Of a stretch of 64,000 nucleotides of DNA, positions 8,965-24,055 are shown in pieces. The notes beneath the pieces are model-generated. The model ran no database searches, was not told the origin of the DNA, and saw only the letters and a program-made list of their open reading frames with translations. Position numbers and translations under genes: made by a program. Each line of letters opens with the position of its first letter. The stretch's first letter is position 1. Source of the stretch: Parerythrobacter aestuarii (GTDB taxonomy: Bacteria > Pseudomonadota > Alphaproteobacteria > Sphingomonadales > Sphingomonadaceae); assembly GCF_030140925.1 (NCBI RefSeq), contig NZ_JARBWD010000002.1:248001-312000 (forward strand). The letters are read 5' to 3'.

Positions 8965-9166
8965 AGGCGTTTAGTTCCTGCACAAGCAGGCGTAATGCCG
9001 GGCACCCCTGTCTGGCGTTACCGGCGATCGTATTTCGGTCGCTGACGACTGAGCCTCCGCATAGGCCTTATCGGTCACGCTCCGCCCGGGGCGGCGATGG
9101 GCTTGCCGCGGAGCGCGACCGACCAGGCCGTGATCCTAGAGGGTAAATGACCTTGTGGGACTCTCA
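8951..9166 (+). ncRNA. Proposed retron msr-msd RNA between effector and reverse transcriptase
   Basis: Folding by eye gives a closed retron-like RNA. The ends pair over 14 bp without interruption (11 Watson-Crick, 3 wobble): TGAGAGTCTCATGA at 8951-8964 with TTGTGGGACTCTCA at 9153-9166, the expected a1/a2 arms. Inside are three msr-type hairpins: 8977-8981 with 8986-8990 (loop ACAA), 8992-9003 with 9010-9021 (12 bp with wobbles), and 9024-9030 with 9036-9042 (7 bp). Then comes a long msd-type stem pairing 9064-9085 with 9108-9129 (22 columns, 3 mismatches, apex 7 bp perfect). A guanine at 8974 in TTAG just after a1 is a candidate branch point. The a1 arm overlaps the effector stop codon and a2 lies within the first codons of the RT. 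Exact msDNA ends cannot be set by eye. Confidence 0.68.
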
Positions 9167-10298
9167 AACCTACGTCGCTGGTGCGCGCGCCGCTAATGTC
9201 GATCCTGCAATTATAAGCGCAGCGCTTAAACATGCTGCCGCGATCCAAAGCGTCTCGCATGAGCTTCCCGTAATCTTCACTCTAGCGCATCTCGCACAAG
9301 TTTGCGGTGTGTCCCATCGGTATCTCACTGACGTAGCTGGCCGCGGTAGTGATCCATATCGTGACTACATCGCTAAGAAACGCCAACATCCCCCAGGGAC
9401 AGCTGTGTCGCGGCGCTATCGGACAATCTGTATCCCCGATCCTGAACTCAAGAAGGTACAGCGCTGGCTCCAACAGCATGTGCTTTCTAAGATCGCACCT
9501 CATCGAGCGAGCACCGCCTATTTCAAAAGGGATACAATCTTTGAAGCGGCAGCTCGTCACGCAGGCGCACGATGGCTAGTCAAAGTCGACATCGAACGGT
9601 TTTTCGAATCCATCAAGGAGCCGTATGTCGCGAGTGTTTTCGAGCGCCTTGGCTATCCGGATCTACTCTCGTTCCAACTAGCCCGACTTTGCACTCGCCT
9701 CCCATCTCTCAAGAGCCGGAAAGATGTGTTCCGCAGGCGCTCCAATCCGATTGGAGGCGTCATGCAGAACGATTGGATAGGATTTCTCCCTCAAGGCGCG
9801 CCGACCAGTCCGCATCTGGCAAACTTGGTCATGCGACGTTTTGATCGGCGCATGACTTCCCTGTCGCGGGAATCCGGCTTGCGTTATAGCCGTTACTCGG
9901 ACGACATGATTTTCTCGACTTCCGGCGCATTTACGAGAGAGGGGGCCGAGGACTTCATTCATCAAGTCTATGATGTACTTGGCGCTCATGGCTTCGAGGC
10001 CAATAGAACCAAGACCAGCATTGCCGCGCCTGGCGCGCGCAAAGTTGTGCTGGGACTCCTAGTCGATCGCGATAGGCCACGCCTCACGCGTAACTTCAGA
10101 GCAAACATTGAGACCCATTTGCATTTCCTCGAGCGTGAAGACGTCGGGCCAGTCCGTCACGCGACGGCGCGGGGTTTTGATTCTGTAATCGGCTTGCGCA
10201 ATCACCTAATGGGGCAAATCGCATTCGCGCGACAAATTGACAGATGCTACGGCGACCGGCTTCGGTCCCGAGTTTTAGCGGTCGACTGGCCCGCTTAA
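9147..10298 (+). CDS. Retron-type reverse transcriptase
   Basis: 383 residues. Start ATG at 9147 is preceded by GAGGG at 9138-9142. The retron/group II RT core is complete: RTICIPDPELKKVQRWL near 92-108, VKVDIERFFESI with catalytic Asp148, LPQGAPTSPHLANL at 214-227, the catalytic YSDD at 250-253 (a variant of YADD), GFEANRTKTSI at 282-292, and VLGLLVD at 301-307 in the place of the VTG motif that marks retron RTs. No maturase X or endonuclease domain follows, which argues against a group II intron. The roughly 75-residue N-terminal part with FTLAHLAQVCGVS is the helical region found in many stand-alone defence RTs. It lies directly behind the structured RNA and the PRTase-like gene, so the three form one module. 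Confidence 0.88.
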   Translation: MTLWDSQTYVAGARAANVDPAIISAALKHAAAIQSVSHELPVIFTLAHLAQVCGVSHRYLTDVAGRGSDPYRDYIAKKRQHPPGTAVSRRYRTICIPDPELKKVQRWLQQHVLSKIAPHRASTAYFKRDTIFEAAARHAGARWLVKVDIERFFESIKEPYVASVFERLGYPDLLSFQLARLCTRLPSLKSRKDVFRRRSNPIGGVMQNDWIGFLPQGAPTSPHLANLVMRRFDRRMTSLSRESGLRYSRYSDDMIFSTSGAFTREGAEDFIHQVYDVLGAHGFEANRTKTSIAAPGARKVVLGLLVDRDRPRLTRNFRANIETHLHFLEREDVGPVRHATARGFDSVIGLRNHLMGQIAFARQIDRCYGDRLRSRVLAVDWPA

Positions 10299-10583: not shown

Positions 10584-10982
10584 ATGACCAATATCGCAAT
10601 CCTCACCGGCCGCATCGCCCGCGAACCGGACACCCGCGAGACCAAGGGCGGCACCAATGTCACCGGGATCACCGTCGTCACCGATCGCCCAGCGCGGGAC
10701 AAGGACGGCAAGACCAAAAGGCAAGAGAATGGCTACACCGCCAAGGAAAGCGAGTTCCACCGGGTGACCTGCTTCTCGCGTCTAGCCAAGACCGTCGGTC
10801 AGTACTGCTCCAAGGGCCAGCTGGTAAGCGTCCAGGGCCGCATCCACTACACCCAGTGGGAGGACAAGGACGGGGTCACGCGCTACGGCACCGAGATCCT
10901 CGCCGACAAGGTCGACTTCCTCTCCCGCGGCAACGGCTCCGGCGAGAACGACGACAACAAGGATGCTCCCGAGATCGACTAA
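10584..10982 (+). CDS. ssb: Single-stranded DNA-binding protein (mobile-element type)
   Basis: 132 residues with the SSB OB-fold layout: MTNIAILTGRIAREPD at the start, FHRVTCFSRLAKTVGQYCSKGQLVSVQGRI in the middle and a strand YGTEILADKVDFL before a short acidic tail. The tail ends in PEID and lacks the usual DDIPF tip that recruits partner proteins. This fits SSBs carried on plasmids and integrative elements rather than the housekeeping copy. A GAAGGAC ribosome-binding site precedes the ATG and a strong hairpin terminator follows. It lies in the accessory island next to the retron module, where it could protect single-stranded DNA of a mobile element. A link to msDNA is only speculation. Confidence 0.9.
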   Translation: MTNIAILTGRIAREPDTRETKGGTNVTGITVVTDRPARDKDGKTKRQENGYTAKESEFHRVTCFSRLAKTVGQYCSKGQLVSVQGRIHYTQWEDKDGVTRYGTEILADKVDFLSRGNGSGENDDNKDAPEID

Positions 10983-11666: not shown

Positions 11667-11996
11667 ATGAAAAGGAATTATTGCTTACAAACTTACGTTA
11701 CCGCTCAAGTTGACGACTGGATAAAGGCCAAAGCGCGCGAGCGCGGGGTCAGCAGCAGCATCGTGGTTGGCGACTGCATTCACGATGCATGGATGCGCGA
11801 TATGGAGGCAGACTTACGCACGCCTGCCACCGATCCGGTGCGTCAGAACATCTTCATCACGGTCGCGCTGGATGCGTTGCTCACGTACCATCCGGAAACC
11901 GATCTGCGCGATCTAGTGGTCGATGCCTATCACCGCAGGCTCGTTCGTCTCGGCCTTGTCGCACCCAGTCCAGAGGGAGGCGACCATGCCGAATGA
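11667..11996 (+). CDS. Small hypothetical protein, possibly ribbon-helix-helix
   Basis: 109 residues, ATG preceded by AAGGAG at a good distance. The N-terminal part (NYCLQTYVTAQVDDWIKAKARERG) has the strand-then-helices look of ribbon-helix-helix DNA-binding or plasmid accessory proteins. The C-terminal part is helical and unassigned. It overlaps the following AlpA-like gene by 11 bases, so the two are probably cotranscribed. Similar gene pairs are found on integrative elements of this group, but I do not recognise a named family and the function is unknown. Confidence 0.6.
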   Translation: MKRNYCLQTYVTAQVDDWIKAKARERGVSSSIVVGDCIHDAWMRDMEADLRTPATDPVRQNIFITVALDALLTYHPETDLRDLVVDAYHRRLVRLGLVAPSPEGGDHAE

Positions 11997-12234
11997 GATC
12001 GAGCAGTTGTCGATGCCGTTTCTCGCGGACTCTGATCATGGGTGCTCCCGAAGGCCCAAGATCAATCGGTTCCTGAGGCTTCGAGAGGTCCTGCATCGGA
12101 CAGGCCTGGGCAGGTCCACGGTCTACCGCTGGATGGATGAAGGCCGGTTTCCAAAGTCGGTTCGCCTGGGCGGTCGCTCGATCGCCTGGATTGAGCATGA
12201 AATCGACGATTGGCTTCAGGATCGATGCAAATAA
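11986..12234 (+). CDS. AlpA-family DNA-binding regulator
   Basis: 82 residues from the ATG at 11986, which has a GAGGGAGG ribosome-binding site at 11973-11980. The frame opens further upstream inside the previous gene, but no site supports that start. The core INRFLRLREVLHRTGLGRSTVYRWMDEGRFP, followed by the segment SVRLGGRSIAWIEHEIDDWL, is the classic MerR-like/AlpA excisionase fold with its helix-turn-helix and wing. AlpA-type proteins control integrase expression or act as excision factors in genomic islands. No integrase is found within this window, so the partner gene may be at the other end of the island or lost. Confidence 0.85.
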   Translation: MPNEIEQLSMPFLADSDHGCSRRPKINRFLRLREVLHRTGLGRSTVYRWMDEGRFPKSVRLGGRSIAWIEHEIDDWLQDRCK

Positions 12235-14961: not shown

Positions 14962-15035
14962 GGGTTTGCTTCCTCTCTAGACTCCTGCGCCTACCACTGC
15001 TGCGCCGCGGGAGACAGTGCCGAAGCGGACTTGCA

Positions 15036-15057
15036 CATATAACAATATCTTTATATG
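15036..15057. promoter_or_regulatory. Palindromic operator-like site at the start of the ArsR-methyltransferase gene
   Basis: Two perfect 7-bp arms, CATATAA at 15036-15042 and TTATATG at 15051-15057, separated by 8 bases, in an AT-rich island within GC-rich DNA. Size, symmetry and location match ArsR-family operators. It lies immediately upstream of the chosen start of the regulator that precedes metF-metH and in the divergent space facing the aldo/keto reductase. Autoregulation of the methionine operon is inferred. Confidence 0.6.
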
Positions 15058-15072
15058 AAATTGGAAATGAAC

Positions 15073-16041
15073 ATGGAGGCAACCACTCGCGCCTTGGCGG
15101 ACCAGACCCGGCTGCGCATCATGCAGCTGCTGGGCACCATGGAACTGGCCGTGGGCGAACTCGCTCAGGTGCTGGGGCAAAGTCAGCCGCGGGTTTCGCG
15201 CCACGTGGCGATCCTTTGCGATGCGGGCTTGGCCGAACGTCGGCGTGAAGGCAGCTGGGTATTCCTGCGGGCGAGGCTTGCCGATGCAGAGGCCGGCGCG
15301 CTGGGAGAAGCGGTTGCCCGCCTGCTGTCGGCTGGCGAAGCCGATGACGAAGAATTCCGCCAGCAATGCGAAGAGGATCGCCGCCATCTGACTGCGATCC
15401 GTCGCCTTCGCGAGGCCGGAGCGGCTGACTGGTTCGCGACCCACGCCGACAAGTGGGATGAACTCCGGCGCATGCATACGCCCGACGAAGCGGTCGAAGC
15501 TGCCATGCTTGCGGCATTGCGTGGAAAGCCACCTGGCACTTTGCTCGATATCGGCACTGGAACGGGGCGCATGGCCGAACTGTTCGCGGACAGCGCCGAC
15601 CACATTGTTGCGCTCGACAAGAGCCTGGAGATGCTCCGCGTGGCGCGGGCGAAGCTGCAGCACCTGCCGGCTGAACGGGTGGAACTGGTTCAGGGGGATT
15701 TCCATGCCTTGCCCTTTGCCGATGAGCGGTTTGAAACAGTCGTGTTGCACCAGGTCCTGCATTTCGCGCAGGAACCGGAACGCGCGCTGGCCGAAGCGGC
15801 ACGGGTGCTCAAGCCTGGTGGCCGCATCGTCATCGTCGATTTCGCTGCCCATTCCCGCGAGGAACTGCGTGAACGGTTCCAGCATGCGCGGCTCGGATTC
15901 AGTGACCGCCAGATGCAGTCGCTCCTGCGCGACGCAGCGTTCACCCCAGCTAGGCCCGTGGCGCTTGAAGGTGATGCGCTAGTGACCAAGGTCTGGCTCG
16001 GTGAACGTCGCAAATCCCGCTGTCTCGAAGCGCAGGACTGA
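15073..16041 (+). CDS. ArsR-type regulator fused to a SAM-dependent methyltransferase domain
   Basis: About 322 residues. The first 80 form an ArsR winged helix (ALADQTRLRIMQLL, then QPRVSRHVAILCDAGLAERRREG). The rest is a class I methyltransferase with motif I LLDIGTGTGRMAELF, the acidic loop VALDKSLEML, QGDFHALPF and GGRIVIVDF. In-frame ATGs also exist at 15055 and 15067. I prefer 15073 because GGA lies seven bases before it and because 15055 sits inside the operator palindrome. Fusion regulators of this type next to metF and metH are thought to sense S-adenosylhomocysteine or SAM. That function is inferred from neighbours: metF starts only seven bases after its stop. Confidence 0.88.
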   Translation: MEATTRALADQTRLRIMQLLGTMELAVGELAQVLGQSQPRVSRHVAILCDAGLAERRREGSWVFLRARLADAEAGALGEAVARLLSAGEADDEEFRQQCEEDRRHLTAIRRLREAGAADWFATHADKWDELRRMHTPDEAVEAAMLAALRGKPPGTLLDIGTGTGRMAELFADSADHIVALDKSLEMLRVARAKLQHLPAERVELVQGDFHALPFADERFETVVLHQVLHFAQEPERALAEAARVLKPGGRIVIVDFAAHSREELRERFQHARLGFSDRQMQSLLRDAAFTPARPVALEGDALVTKVWLGERRKSRCLEAQD

Positions 16042-16048
16042 GGCTCCA

Positions 16049-16975
16049 ATGGCCCCCCACCAATATCCGCATCAGTCGCTCCGGTTCGCCGAGACCCCGT
16101 TGTTTGCCGGGCTGCCGGGCGATGTGCGCGTGTCGTTCGAATTCTTCCCGCCCAAGACCCCCAAGGGCGAGGAAAACCTGATGGCGTGCCTGCACAGCCT
16201 TGCCACGCTCGATCCCGACTTCGTCTCGCTGACCTATGGTGCGGGCGGATCGACCCGCGCACGAAGCCGTGAAGTGGCCGCACGCATGAACCGCGAGGTA
16301 AAGGCCCCGGTCGCGGCGCACCTGACTTGCGTGGGTGCCTCCAAGGCCGAGACCGACCGGATCGCCGACGAGTTCTGGGAAGCGGGCATCCGCCACATCG
16401 TCGCGCTGCGCGGCGACGGTGGTCCCCCGGGCACGAAATTCGAACCGCACCCCGATGGCTATGCCAATGCGGCGGAATTGGTAGCCGGCCTCAAGAGGCT
16501 GCATCCGTTCGAGATTTCAGTCGCCGCCTATCCTGAAACGCACCCGGACTCGCCCGACGAAGTGGCGGACCTCGACAATCTCAAGCGGAAGTTCGACGCT
16601 GGTGCCGACCGGGCGATCACGCAGTTCTTCTTCCAATCGCAGAGCTTCTTCCGGTTTCGCGATCGTGCTGCGGCGGCGGGACTCGACAAGCAGGTCATCC
16701 CCGGAATCCTGCCCGTCACCAATTTCGAACGGACGCAGAGCTTCGCCAACGCGTGCGGAGCGGAGCTACCCGAATGGTTTGCCGACCTGTTCGCCGGGCT
16801 CGATGCCATGCCGCATGCCCGCGAGCTGGTGGCAGCGACTGTCACAGCCGAGTTCTGCCGTCGCCTCTATGCCGAACAAGTGCGGGACTTCCACTTCTAC
16901 ACGCTCAACCGCTCCGAACTGTCCTACGCCACCTGTCACATGCTGGGCCTGCGCCCCAAGGAGACCGCTGCATGA
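16049..16975 (+). CDS. metF: 5,10-methylenetetrahydrofolate reductase
   Basis: 308 residues. This FAD enzyme reduces methylene-THF to methyl-THF, the methyl donor for the methionine synthase encoded next. Signatures are SFEFFPPKTPKGEE with the catalytic Glu, SLTYGAGGSTR, HLTCVG, IVALRGD, AAYPETHPDS and ITQFFF. The ATG at 16049 gives MAPHQYPHQS; longer in-frame versions run into the regulator gene. The stop overlaps the metH start (ATGA), so the folate and homocysteine steps are translationally coupled. Length and motifs match the bacterial MetF family with nothing missing. Confidence 0.95.
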   Translation: MAPHQYPHQSLRFAETPLFAGLPGDVRVSFEFFPPKTPKGEENLMACLHSLATLDPDFVSLTYGAGGSTRARSREVAARMNREVKAPVAAHLTCVGASKAETDRIADEFWEAGIRHIVALRGDGGPPGTKFEPHPDGYANAAELVAGLKRLHPFEISVAAYPETHPDSPDEVADLDNLKRKFDAGADRAITQFFFQSQSFFRFRDRAAAAGLDKQVIPGILPVTNFERTQSFANACGAELPEWFADLFAGLDAMPHARELVAATVTAEFCRRLYAEQVRDFHFYTLNRSELSYATCHMLGLRPKETAA

Positions 16976-18018
16976 CTCCGCGTGAACGGTTGCAGGCGGC
17001 AGCTTCCCGGCAGCTGCTGGTCAAGGATGGACCCTATGGCACGGAAATCCAGCGAGCAGGGTTGGCACCGGAAGACTATGCCGGCGACACCGGGCTGGCG
17101 CAGGACCAAAAGGGCAACAACGACCTGGTCAACCTGACCCAGCCGCAGGTCATTCGCGCGATCTGCGACAGCTATATCGCCGCCGGGGCAACGGTGCTGG
17201 CGACCAATACCTTCAATGCCAACCGGATCAGCCAGGCCGACTATGGTGCCGAGGCTCTGGTACATGAGATCAATGTCGCCGCCGCACGCATCATCCGCGC
17301 TGCCTGTGATGAGGCCAGCGCGAAGGACGGCATCGAACGCTTCGTGTGCGGAGCGATGGGGCCGACCAACAAGACCCTCTCGCTCAGCCCCGATGTGGAG
17401 GATCCCGGCTTTCGCGAAGTCAGCTTCGACGAGATCGTCGAAGTCTATCGCGAACAGGCTGTCGCACTGCTTGAAGGCGGAGCGGACTTCATCCTCATTG
17501 AGACAGTGTTCGACACGCTCAATTGCAAGGCAGCGATCATGGCGGTGAAGCAGCTTGAGCGCGAGCGCGGCGAGGATATCCCGCTGATGATCTCGCTAAC
17601 GCTGACCGACCTGTCGGGTCGCAACCTCTCGGGCCATACGGTCGAGGCCTTCTGGTACACGGTCCGCCATGCGAAGCCGGTCACCATCGGGCTCAATTGC
17701 AGCTTCGGAGCCGAGCAATTGCGGCCACATGTCCAGCTGCTCTCGCGCATCGCCGATGCTTTGCTGATGGCCTATCCCAACGCCGGACTGCCCAATGATC
17801 TGGGGCAATATGACGAGCTGCCGGAGACCACCGCCAGCTTCCTGCGGGACTGGGCCGAAAACGGTCGCGCCAATATCCTCGGCGGCTGCTGCGGCTCGAC
17901 GCCTGAACATATCGCGGCGATTGCCAGGGCAATCGGCGGAATGCCCGTGCGCGCGATCCCGGCTGCGGAGCCGGAAATGCGGCTAGCCGGTCTCGAACCC
18001 TTTACGATTGCTGCCTGA
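16972..18018 (+). CDS. metH: Methionine synthase, homocysteine-methyltransferase half (split MetH)
   Basis: 348 residues covering only the first module of cobalamin-dependent methionine synthase, the zinc-dependent homocysteine-binding barrel. The zinc cysteines are visible in LNCSFG and [11 protein letters not shown], and the [12 protein letters not shown] and [11 protein letters not shown] segments are typical. The frame can be extended upstream, but the ATG overlapping the metF stop is the sensible start. The other MetH modules are in the next gene, one base further on. Split MetH is normal in several sphingomonads, so this is not a frameshift: both genes have clean starts and the stop falls in a linker. 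Confidence 0.93.
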
Positions 18019-18019
18019 C

Positions 18020-20647
18020 ATGACCGCACAAACACCAAAGGAAACGGGTGCCCGTTTCGTCAATGTCGGCGAGCGCACCAATGTCACCGGTTCGGCCGCG
18101 TTCAAGAAGCTGATCATGGCGGACGACTATGCCAAGGCCGTCGAAGTCGCCCGCCAGCAGGTCGAGAACGGCGCGCAGGTGATCGACGTCAACATGGACG
18201 AGGGCCTGCTCGACGCCGAGAAGGCGATGACGACCTTCCTCAAGCTGATCGCTGCAGAGCCCGATATCGCCCGCGTGCCGGTTATGATCGACAGCTCGAA
18301 GTTCGATGTGATCGAAGCGGGCCTCAAGTGCGTCAGCGGCAAGCCGATCGTCAATTCGATCAGCATGAAGGAAGGCGAGGAGCCGTTCCTGGAACATGCC
18401 CGCAAGTGCATGGATTATGGCGCAGCGGTGGTCGTCATGGCCTTCGACGAAACGGGCCAGGCCGACACGAAGGCGCGCAAGGTGGAGATCTGCCAGCGTG
18501 CTTACGCGCTGCTGACCGGCATCGGCTTTCCGCCGGAAGACATCATCTTCGATCCCAATATCTTTGCCGTGGCGACGGGGATCGAGGAGCATGATCGCTA
18601 CGGTCTCGACTTCATCGAAGCTGTGCAGGAGATCAAGGCGCTGTGCCCGCATGCCAAGACTTCGGGCGGGCTCTCCAATCTTTCCTTCAGCTTCCGCGGC
18701 AACGAAACCGTGCGTCGGGCGATGCACTCTGTGTTCCTTTATCACGCCATCCCCGCCGGGCTCGACATGGCGATCGTCAATGCCGGGCAGCTCGACATCT
18801 ATGACGATATCGACGCCACCCTGCGCGACGCGTGCGAGGACGTGATCCTGTGCCGCCGTTCGGATGCGACCGAGCGGCTGATCGAACTCGCCGAAAGCTA
18901 CAAGGGCAGGGACGCCAAGGCCGAGAAGGAAGCCGAGGAATGGCGCGGCTGGCCGGTCGAGCGGCGGCTCGAACATGCGCTGGTCAAGGGCATCGACGCG
19001 CATGTGGTCGACGATACCGAGGAAGCCCGCGCGGCGCTGGAAGCCGGCGGCGGCCGGCCCATCGAAGTCATCGAAGGTCCGCTGATGGACGGGATGAACG
19101 TCGTCGGCGACCTGTTCGGCAGCGGCAAGATGTTCCTGCCGCAGGTGGTGAAATCGGCCCGTGTGATGAAGAAGGCCGTGGCGCACCTGATCCCCTTCAT
19201 CGAAGCGGAGAAGGAAGAGGGGGCCAAGGCCAAGGGCACCATCATCATGGCCACAGTGAAAGGCGACGTCCACGATATCGGGAAGAACATCGTCGGCGTG
19301 GTGCTGCAGTGCAACGGCTATGAAGTGATCGACCTCGGCGTGATGGTGCCGTGGCAGGATATCCTCAAGGCCGCGGTCGAAAACGATGCCGACATGATCG
19401 GGCTATCGGGCCTCATTACCCCGTCGCTCGACGAGATGGTGACCGTGGCCGAGGAAATGCAGCGCGCGGGCATGACCATGCCGTTGCTGATCGGCGGCGC
19501 GACCACCAGCAAAGTCCACACTGCGCTGCGCATCGATCCCGCCTATGATGGCCCTGTGATCCATGTCCTCGATGCCAGCCGCGCGGTCGGGGTGGCTAGC
19601 CGGTTGCTGTCCGACACCCAGCGCGATGAGTTCGTCGAGAGCACTGCCAGCGATTACCAGCACGTGCGCGATGTCCGCGAAGGCAAGGGGCAGAGCGAGC
19701 TCTTCACGCTCGAGGAGGCTCGCGCCAATTATTACGACGCCTATCTCAGCGACAAGGCCGCCCCGCCGGACAAACCGGGCATTCACGTGTTCGACGACTG
19801 GTCGCTGGCGGACCTGCGCGAATGCATTGACTGGACCCCGTTCTTCCGCGCCTGGGAGCTGCACGGCACTTACCCGCGCATCCTGGATGACGAGGTCGTG
19901 GGCGAAGCAGCCCGCAGTCTCTACGCCGATGCGCAGGCGATGCTGGACCGGGTCGTCGAGGAGAAATGGCTGACCGCCAGGGGTGTGTGTGGCTTCTGGC
20001 CCTGTGCGCGGGACGGCGACGATGTGACGATCCACCTGGCCGAGCAGGAAGAGCATGTCGTGCTCCCGTTCTTGCGCCAGCAGGTCAAGAAAAGCCGTGA
20101 CCGGGCCAATTTCTGCTTGGCCGATTTCATTGACCCGGCGGGCGACTGGATCGGCGGCTTCGCGGTCGGCATCCACGGGATCGAGCCGCACTCTGCGCGG
20201 TTCCAGGCCGAGAAGGACGACTATTCGGACATCTTGCTCAAGGCTCTGGCGGATCGCTTTGCCGAAGCCTTTGCCGAGCGGCTGCACCAGCATGTCCGCA
20301 CCGACCTGTGGGGCTATGCCCCGGGCGAGCAGCTGACCAACGAGGCCCTGATCAAGGAGCAATATCGCGGCATCCGCCCGGCACCGGGCTATCCGGCCTG
20401 CCCGGATCATTCGCTCAAGCCGATCCTGTTCGACCTGCTCGATGCGCCCGCCAATGCCGGGCTGACCCTGACTGAGAGCTTCGCGATGTTTCCCACGGCG
20501 GCGGTCAGCGGGTTTTACTTCGGCCATCCTGAAAGCCAGTATTTCGGGGTGGCCCGGATCGGGCGTGACCAGCTCGAAGATTATGCTCGCCGTCGCGGGG
20601 TCGATCTGGCAACCGCTGAGCGATGGCTACGTCCCAATCTCGATTGA
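18020..20647 (+). CDS. metH: Methionine synthase, folate/cobalamin/activation half (split MetH)
   Basis: 875 residues with the remaining MetH modules in order: pterin-binding barrel ([12 protein letters not shown] near 13-24, then [14 protein letters not shown]), cobalamin cap ([26 protein letters not shown]), cobalamin domain with the histidine ligand in [12 protein letters not shown], and the SAM-binding reactivation domain ending with [13 protein letters not shown]. The ATG at 18020 is one base after the previous stop; a TTG at 18008 would add four residues. It needs the preceding gene product for homocysteine activation. The 3' end overlaps the dioxygenase gene by 25 bases. Confidence 0.95.
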
Positions 20648-21615
20648 GCGTCACGGCGGCCTTGCCGCGGATCGCGCATCTGGATGACCTGCGACGCGCC
20701 TTCGTCGCCGGGGGTGAGCCGCTGCCGGAAATTACCACACGCCTGCTGCTCGATACGCTGGGGCTGGGCAACCGGCAGGCGTTCGACTTCCTCGCCCGGG
20801 CGCGCCCGACGCAGGAAGAGTTCGAACAGTGGGTGATCGAAACCGCCGGCATGCCGGACCCGGATCTGGTCGTTCGTTACAATGCGGCGGTGGAAGCGCA
20901 TGCAGCTGCACGGTCAACCGAACCGGATATCGACCGCTTGCCGAATGTCCTGAGCGAAGCGGATCTCACGCAATGGGAGCGCGACGGCTATGTCATCTTG
21001 CATGACGCAATTTCGCGCGAGGCCTGCGCAGAAGTCGCGCGGCTGGTCTGGGACTTTCTCGACGCCTGCGCCGACGAACCCGTCAGCTGGTACGGTAAGG
21101 GTGCGGAGGGCATCATGGTGCCGGTTTACCAGCACCCGGCGCTGGAAGTCGGGCGGCGCTCGCCCCGTGTGCGGAAAGCCTTCGCGCAGCTGTGGGGGCG
21201 GAGCGACCTGTGGGTAACGATCGACCAGTTGGGCTTCAACCCGCCCGTGACTGAGCACAGCGCGTTCAAGGGCAGCGACTTGCACTGGGACGTCAGCCTG
21301 GCGCGTCCCATCCCTTTCGCAACGCAGGCGCTGCTCTACCTCACCGACACGAGCACCGACCACGGGGCCTTTCGTTGCGTGCCGGGCTTTCACCACCGGC
21401 TGGACGCGTGGCTCGACAATCTGGATGGACAGTTGCCGCGTGAGGTCGATCTTTCGGACGAGGCCGTCTGCGTTCCGGGTAGGGTCGGGGACCTCGTGAT
21501 CTGGCGGCAGGACTTGCCGCATGGGGCCAGCCCCAACCGGGCGGATCGACCGCGGCTGGTGCAATATCTCAACTTCTATCCGCCGGATCTGGAAATGGCG
21601 GACCAATGGCTCTGA
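20623..21615 (+). CDS. Phytanoyl-CoA dioxygenase family protein
   Basis: 330 residues, a predicted Fe(II)/2-oxoglutarate oxygenase of the PhyH family. The iron facial triad is likely His and Asp in GSDLHWDVS and His in LPHGASPN, and the 2-oxoglutarate Arg is in [10 protein letters not shown]. About 100 extra residues at the N-terminus are helical and unassigned. It starts within the end of metH and its own end overlaps the TauE/SafE permease by ten bases, so it is part of the methionine transcript. The substrate is unknown; the neighbours hint at a sulfur or one-carbon compound, which is inference. Confidence 0.88.
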
Positions 21616-22577: not shown

Positions 22578-22683
22578 GTTTGCGGGTGAAAAATCATGCT
22601 GCAATGCATCATCGGCGATTGACCGGCGGGCGCTTTTGAGCGACGGGGAAGGGGTCGCCCGGATGCGAATCCGGGACGCATTT

Positions 22684-22874
22684 GCGGGAGAGGTCGCGCG
22701 GCTGGAAGCAGCCAAGCGGCGCCGAAGGAGCAACCGCCCCGGAATCTCTCAGGCAAAAGGACCGCGATGCGTTGAGACACTCTGGAAAGCGCCCGCGCCG
22801 CATGGCGTGAGCCACCGAAGGAGGAAGCGCGCTGCACAAGGCGCGTGATGCTCTCAGGTTTCCCGACAGAGGGG
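22684..22874 (+). promoter_or_regulatory. Tandem glycine riboswitch
   Basis: Two consecutive glycine aptamers are readable. The first runs from GCGGGAGAGG through GCCGAAGGAGCAA and AATCTCTCAGGCAAAAGGACCGC-type core elements (about 22684-22765). The second runs from ACTCTGGAAAGC through CACCGAAGGAGGAAGC and CTCTCAGGTTTCCCGACAGAGGGGG-type elements (about 22779-22874). The short linker between them (about 22768-22778) is usual for the cooperative tandem form. It ends about 47 bases before gcvT, so glycine should switch on the glycine cleavage operon. Confidence 0.95.
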
Positions 22875-22921: not shown

Positions 22922-24055
22922 TTGAGCGATAGTGAAACCGAAGACGAAGTGATTGAGCTAGGCACGCTGCCGCTCGACGCCTGGCACCGGGCGCAAGGTG
23001 CGCGGATGGTGCCCTTCGCCGGCTACGAGATGCCGATCCAGTATGAAGGTATCGTCGCCGAGCACGATTGGACCCGCACCAGCGCCGGCCTGTTCGATGT
23101 GTCGCATATGGGGCAGCTACTGTTGTCCGGTCCCGATCTGGACGCGGCGGTCGAAGCGGTGCTGCCGATCGACCTCTCGACGCTGAAGCTCGGCCAGCAG
23201 CGCTATTCGCTGCTGCTCGACGAAGAGGGCGGGGTGCTCGACGACCTGATGGTCTCGCGCTGGCCCGAAGCGCTCTATCTTGTCGTCAATGGCGCGACCA
23301 AGTGGGACGATATCGGCCATTTGCGCGAACATTTGCCGGACGAGATCACGCTCCACCACATGGACGAACACGCGTTGCTCGCGCTGCAGGGGCCCAAGGC
23401 GTTCGCCGCGCTGGAGCGCCATGCGCAGGGCGAATACCCGCTCTCCGCGCTGACCTTCATGAAGTTCGGTCGATTCACGCTCGCCGGGCACGATGTCACC
23501 ATCGCCCGCGCCGGCTACACAGGCGAGGACGGGTTCGAGATCTCGCTGCCCGCCGCCGCTGCGGAGGAGATCGCCACGCTGCTGTGCGGCGAGCCCGAAG
23601 TGAAGCCAATTGGTCTCGGTGCGCGCGACAGCCTGCGCCTCGAGGCCGGGTTGCCACTCTACGGCCATGACCTCTCGCCCGAGACTTCGCCGATCGAGGC
23701 GGGGCTCATTTTCGGCATCAACAAGCGCCGCCGCACGGAAGGCGGCTATCCCGGTGCCGACCGCATCAACCGCGAGATCGCGCAAGGCACCGCGCGCAAG
23801 TGGGTCGGCCTGAAACTCGAAGGTCGCATGCCTGCACGTGAGGGAGCCGAGGTGTTCGTAGGGGATACCAGGGTAGGAACCGTCACCAGCGGCGGCCATT
23901 CGCCAACGCTCGGCTATCCGATCGCGATGGCCTATGTCGATGTGGCCTACGCCGCCGAGGGCACCCAGCTCGAAATCGAAGTCCGTTCCAAGCGTCTGCC
24001 GGCCACGGTCGTGCCGATGCCATTCGTACCGCACCGCTACTACCGGGGGAAATAA
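22922..24055 (+). CDS. gcvT: Glycine cleavage system aminomethyltransferase (T protein)
   Basis: 377 residues. The T protein transfers the aminomethyl carbon from lipoylated GcvH to tetrahydrofolate and releases ammonia. Hallmarks are [45 protein letters not shown] containing the catalytic Asp, [13 protein letters not shown], and the C-terminal [13 protein letters not shown]. Translation seems to begin at TTG at 22922, with GGGGA a few bases before it, giving a short acidic N-terminal tail; a GTG at 22958 is a less supported alternative. It is the first gene after the glycine riboswitch and is followed by gcvH with a two-base gap. Confidence 0.95.

Follow-up and report, generated by a model that had tools for sequence, protein, structure and literature searches.

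A predicted SahR repressor heading the sahR–metF–metH1–metH2 operon and a three-site methyl-cycle regulon in Parerythrobacter aestuarii

Introduction

SahR is an ArsR-family regulator that recognizes a 20-bp palindrome and has a core regulon of sahR, ahcY, metH, metH2, metF and metK; Leyn et al. 2014 reconstructed this regulon in seven of seven Sphingomonadales genomes (PMC4239095). S-adenosylhomocysteine (SAH) is the SahR effector in Desulfovibrio, a result credited to Novichkov et al. 2014 in PMC8877191, and a sahR mutant of Ensifer aridi shows raised sahR promoter activity, consistent with autorepression (PMC8877191). The name SahR is used likewise in PMC7950407, PMC5343134 and PMC8710502. 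The SAH riboswitch is another SAH-responsive regulator of ahcY and metF (PMC4239095); it resembles SahR in targets and signal, but is an RNA and not a protein. SamR of Xanthomonadales is a SahR homologue encoded next to a split metH, with approximately 30% identity and a 24-bp palindrome; in the regulons as given in the same source, metK is the only SAM-cycle gene, ahcY is absent and the effector is called undetermined (PMC4239095). Finally, ‘ArsR^M’ of Brevundimonas sp. M20 is encoded by a 960-bp ArsR–methyltransferase gene, followed in the same operon by metF, a gene for a homocysteine methyltransferase, and metH; the protein shifts its own promoter in gel assays, and that promoter contains an AT-rich palindrome (PMC10190100).

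Here we analyse a 64,000-nucleotide stretch of Parerythrobacter aestuarii DNA, hereafter the window, for which an original prediction, made from the letters, had proposed a SAM- or SAH-sensing ArsR-type regulator of the methionine cycle. We conclude with high confidence that the gene is the alphaproteobacterial sahR, leading a sahR–metF–metH1–metH2 operon and encoding a predicted SAH-released repressor of this operon, ahcY and metK. The system is already known under the name SahR, so the original prediction is right but not new.

A two-domain regulator

The regulator combines an ArsR-type helix-turn-helix (HTH_5, 3.3e-11; NF033788, 75.6 bits with a cut-off of 55) with a methyltransferase-fold domain (Methyltransf_11, 2.2e-27), as the original prediction had read it. 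Its predicted structure has a pLDDT of 92.9 and a pTM of 0.84 and superposes on 1vl5 with a Z of 23.2 and an rmsd of 1.8 over 174 aligned residues. The fold matches listed for the model are methyltransferases; the 60 best of 118 sequence matches include no solved structure spanning both domains.

The start codon is most likely at position 15067, with which the N-termini of relatives align. An ATG at 15055, inside the palindrome upstream, was rejected as the start on this ground, and the distance between palindrome and start differs among relatives, so that an ATG within the palindrome does not count as conserved. A start at 15067 places the operator just before the gene. The original prediction had put the site on the start region; it does adjoin the gene start, but it precedes the gene and the ATG that it contains is unlikely to begin it.

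Operator and promoter

The predicted operator, CATATAACAATATCTTTATATG, has two perfect 7-bp arms and, by reading, 9 of 11 base pairs over the whole site. It is the sole match in the window, with 0 in 100 shuffles, and when the spacer is relaxed to CATATAA-N4..10-TTATATG it is still the single match in the whole 3.02-Mb genome. The perfect CATATAA/TTATATG site of the original prediction is therefore both present and unique. Of 50 rows covering the region upstream of sahR in Sphingomonadales, 48 retain at least 10 of the 12 operator core positions; counted as distinct genes, with that of the window among them, the share is 46 of 47.

A −35-like hexamer lies directly next to the operator. Among 118 distinct promoter regions, taken from 127 loci in the order and in named relatives, the pattern TT[TG][AGC](C or A[CG]) stands just 5′ of ATATAA in 81; a control window placed farther upstream gives 5 of 118. 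The type to which the window’s own hexamer belongs, TTGCA[CG], lies beside the operator in 14 of the 118 and in 0 of the controls, and a narrower pattern that the window does not match, TT[TG][AGC]C, in 63 versus 5. With the hexamer in this position, the right half of the operator probably lies at about −10, overlapping the promoter, and transcription would begin close to the ATG. In 84 of the 118 distinct regions, an in-frame ATG or GTG is first met 8–13 nt past the palindrome, which suggests a very short or leaderless sahR mRNA in this lineage; the palindrome-to-start distance is mostly 8–14 nt in the window’s family and 27–110 nt in the other families of the order.

Table 1 Features of the sahR locus, in window coordinates
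Feature	Description	Position	Strand	Basis
−35-like hexamer	TTGCAC, abuts operator	15031–15036	+	Inferred; pattern comparison over promoter regions
SahR operator (predicted)	22-bp palindrome CATATAA-N8-TTATATG	15036–15057	+	Pattern search, comparison
sahR	ArsR-type winged helix plus class I methyltransferase fold (SAM/SAH-binding), 324 aa	15067–16041	+	Pfam/NCBIfam, comparison
metF	Methylenetetrahydrofolate reductase, 308 aa	16049–16975	+	PF02219 2.5e-85; TIGR00676 above cut-off
metH1	Homocysteine-binding half of split methionine synthase, 348 aa	16972–18018	+	PF02574 1.4e-88
metH2	Folate/B12/activation part of split methionine synthase, 875 aa	18020–20647	+	PF00809, PF02607, PF02310, PF02965

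The metF–metH1–metH2 operon

The four genes follow one another at 7, −4 (an overlap) and 1 nt (Table 1). The product of metH1 aligns with residues 9–355 of the MetH model and that of metH2 with residues 358–1230. The MetH domains are thus divided over two genes, and the ‘metH’ of the original prediction is a split methionine synthase: the regulator does lead metF and metH as proposed, but the region then considered, 15036–18018, holds only the homocysteine-binding part, and metH2 falls outside it. The order sahR–metF–metH1–metH2 recurs in 18 of 20 fetched Sphingomonadales loci, and both exceptions are the two sahR copies of a single genome, described below. A scan of named relatives, which covers the best 80 loci only and is no survey of distribution, finds the operator by pattern in 76, metF as the next gene in 77, metH1 in 74 and metH2 in 70; half of the 10 loci lacking metH2 reach the end of their contig within 2.3 kb.

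A PhyH-type dioxygenase gene (20623–21615, +) overlaps the end of metH2. This gene and a TauE gene downstream were rejected as operon members: neither has a match in the 20 fetched stretches, which extend roughly 2–3 kb beyond metH2 where metH2 is present. Past them, a glycine riboswitch (22675–22774, +, 60 bits) precedes a gcvT-like gene at 22922. At the Rfam gathering threshold, this riboswitch and a tRNA are the only elements in the whole window, and no SAH or SAM element is found at the ahcY or metK loci; riboswitch control of the sahR operon, ahcY and metK was accordingly set aside. On the upstream side, a type III-A retron reverse transcriptase (9147–10298, +; PADLOC RT_III-A 1.9e-162, Pfam RVT_1), a single-strand binding protein (10584–10982) and an AlpA-like regulator (11923–12234) form a stretch that looks like a mobile island.

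Three predicted operators in one genome

Allowing at most one mismatch, ATATAA-N8-TTATAT occurs at three places in the genome: before the sahR operon, 98 nt before the ATG of ahcY and 16 nt before that of metK (distances by reading). Both ahcY and metK are single-copy. These are exactly the genes before which the SahR motif is expected, namely sahR, ahcY, metK and metF/metH. At two mismatches the core motif has 9 places and a reversed control pattern also 9, so no sites can be claimed beyond the three near-exact ones. The genome has one MetE-like gene, a weak match (22–23 bits, Pfam cut-off 21), and metE was rejected as an additional target, with no site near that gene even at two mismatches. 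The original prediction had proposed a search for the palindrome at ahcY, metK and metE, and was staked on at least one further methionine gene carrying it; ahcY and metK do, and the weak MetE-like gene does not.

Conservation and co-loss in Sphingomonadales

The regulator is found in 135 of 147 genomes of the order and an exact operator site in 132; among good assemblies, defined by a completeness of 90% or more and a contamination of 5% or less, the counts are 120 and 112 of 124. Regulator and sites are lost together in these well-assembled genomes: an exact site is present in 112 of the 120 with the regulator versus none of the 4 without (Fisher p 5e-5, kinship ignored). The remaining 8 regulator-bearing genomes have one-mismatch sites, 7 at ahcY and 1 at sahR (G050). 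Upstream of ahcY, the four good SahR-less genomes score 6–7 of 12 core positions, the background level, and seven of ten SahR-bearing genomes compared score 11 of 12; the other three (G025, G050 and G123) have no site there, G123 having ahcY fragments only.

Three SahR-less genomes of one family (G019, G030 and G100) have metF matches of only 34–37 bits, versus 275–328 bits in 11 others compared, and retain ahcY; they may have lost the methionine-remaking operon as a whole. Another, G128, retains metF–metH1–metH2, with neither sahR nor a site nearby. The regulator is also not found in eight less complete assemblies (53–85%), five of which (G037, G095, G098, G106 and G115) carry an exact site; missing contigs or chance sites may account for these five.

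It is hardly conceivable that the palindrome is AT-rich sequence present by chance, with the regulator controlling something else. The motif is of low complexity, and the reversed control reaches up to 8 matches in some genomes of the order; in this genome, however, the control has 0 exact matches and each of the three near-exact sites stands before a gene of the methionine cycle, and the joint loss of regulator and site argues further against coincidence. Of 30 exact-site loci compared across the order, 9 lie at sahR, 11 at metK and 1 at ahcY; the other 9 are beside none of the tested genes.

Some loci depart from the common arrangement. G123 has two SahR copies (L077, 1055–2035, and L078, 7534–8490), one with neither an operator nor a nearby metF, the other divergent from metF with the operator between them. 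A SahR from Gluconobacter frateurii (L167, 6001–6894) groups with three Sphingomonas-type rows inside the window’s family (99/88); its locus has the site and metF but lacks metH within 6 kb, and may reflect horizontal transfer or a contig given the wrong label. At metK of some genomes of family f8 (for example, L049 and L060, both 1501–1536), two overlapping operators 16 nt apart create CTTTATATAAA at the centre, which resembles the palindrome published for ArsR^M of Brevundimonas.

The wider family and the effector

Regulator, operator and operon recur across Sphingomonadales and the wider Alphaproteobacteria. In a phylum sample of 200 genomes, 53 match SahR, 35 of them in the class (370–453 bits) and 18 outside it (148–205 bits). 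Of the best 30 of the 53, window included, 27 have metF adjoining sahR, and 27 match the motif at no fewer than 9 of its 12 positions. For comparison, 16 of the 18 matches from outside the class were fetched together with two from within it. Twelve of the 16 adjoin metK, 10 of these with an ATATCAA...TTGATA-type palindrome, and the other four adjoin metH1 and metH2, with upstream palindromes that look different. These arrangements fit the published gamma SahR and SamR types, respectively, and we label them so by inference.

In the tree, the gamma-type and SamR-like groups are each set apart at 100/100; the branching point of SamR among the rows of the window’s class has no firm support. The window protein lies among its own family and class, with alphaproteobacterial rows of like operon and motif and apart from the gamma-type rows (100/100). 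It is likewise not in the SamR-like clade (100/100), and its operator is of the ATATAA-N8-TTATAT form. The locus shares with SamR the position of a SahR homologue beside a split metH, but SamR differs, by the published account, in palindrome length, sequence identity and the lack of ahcY from its regulon, and the rows taken for it here form a clade of their own. Set against published SahR, the locus shows no difference of substance: the ArsR family, the palindrome and the core regulon are alike. The name is assigned by regulon, operon, motif and tree, and orthology to the experimentally studied SahR proteins is presumed.

The distant SamR also raises the question of the effector. The regulator could respond to SAM, as end-product feedback, instead of SAH, as has been suggested for SamR; the pocket motif is indistinguishable for the two ligands, metK belongs to this regulon as it does to that of SamR, and Leyn et al. 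call the SamR effector undetermined (PMC4239095). We consider this unlikely, as the regulon here also includes ahcY, which encodes the SAH-removing enzyme, whereas the SamR regulons as published contain no SAM-cycle gene other than metK (PMC4239095), and the SamR-like rows are separate in the tree, with all four beside metH1/metH2 and with different-looking palindromes. SAH as the effector, and repression with autoregulation, come from the literature on SahR, and the same effector would presumably act here.

Sensor or enzyme

The methyltransferase domain looks like a sensor, on evidence that leans this way. Across 151 distinct orthologues, the SAM/SAH pocket residues D161, G163, G165, G167 and D184 are present in all and D211 in 149; H232, R268, H273, L276 and G277 are fixed in all 151 and H228 in 150, so that the fixed positions lie both in and beyond the generic SAM motif. 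A row of the class beyond these 151, L250, carries K at position 268. The gamma and SamR types keep the glycine-rich loop in a modified form, and positions 228, 229 and 275 differ in both, with H228 replaced by N or M. H273 is replaced by D in the gamma type only, and H232 by T in the SamR type only; R268 is replaced by V in the SamR type. The changed positions presumably lie on the acceptor side, as in the usual class I fold. A common ligand surrounded by differing residues would suit a sensor. That these residues do not vary within the alphaproteobacterial clade still gives catalysis a slim chance: the domain might be sensor and enzyme at once, methylating a clade-specific acceptor, arsenite or a metabolite, in a reaction coupled to DNA release, a combination that we regard as quite improbable.

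An alternative is that the protein is a bifunctional regulator-enzyme of the ArsR^M kind, methylating arsenite with its methyltransferase domain while its ArsR domain governs the met operon, so that arsenic resistance would be tied to methionine supply. Li et al. 2023 provide assay data from Brevundimonas: a coupled kit measured SAM turnover of 0.87 U/mg with arsenite, the legend naming controls from which SAM, arsenite or protein was left out, and Escherichia coli became more tolerant of arsenite (PMC10190100). The Brevundimonas protein most likely is a SahR orthologue under another name. Six of the eight residues named there as SAM-binding (H223, Q224, H227, F254, R263 and H268) correspond to H228, Q229, H232, F259, R268 and H273 of the window protein at a constant offset of 5, a match made by the paper’s residue numbers; the operon order and the AT-rich promoter palindrome are also shared, and the difference lies in its description as an arsenite methyltransferase.

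That description sits poorly with the family as a whole. By the same offset, the invoked arsenic cysteine C134 falls on window position 139, where no orthologue has a cysteine, and the neighbouring column 138 has one in 5 of 151; with the invoked residue so rare or absent, the arsenite methyltransferase reading is doubtful. Cysteine is missing altogether from 33 of the 151 orthologues, and in the columns where it is commonest it reaches 64% and 54%. ArsM enzymes have three or more conserved arsenic-binding cysteines; among the 151 SahR orthologues, no cysteine is invariant. The pattern of sites, moreover, tracks the methionine cycle. The terms ‘HPLC’ and ‘SahR’ are absent from the text of the paper (PMC10190100), and a search of the open-licence literature found no paper naming both ‘SahR’ and ‘ArsRM’. 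Arsenite methylation by this regulator is, in our assessment, very improbable.

Discussion

The preferred reading remains that of an SAH-responsive SahR, for which the published system and the arrangement seen here suggest the following mechanism. SahR, probably as a dimer, would bind the AT-rich palindrome overlapping the promoter and block transcription of its own operon and, elsewhere in the genome, of ahcY and metK. When SAH accumulates, it would bind the methyltransferase-fold domain, acting as the sensor, and SahR would leave the DNA. AhcY could then remove SAH, MetF and MetH remake methionine, and MetK remake SAM.

For annotation, the comparison points to a probable naming conflict: ArsR^M, described as an arsenite methyltransferase, is apparently the SahR family under a second name, which could mislead the naming of related genes. 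For the organism, a clean whole-genome test confirms that a known repressor, by its predicted identity SahR, runs the methyl cycle in this lineage.
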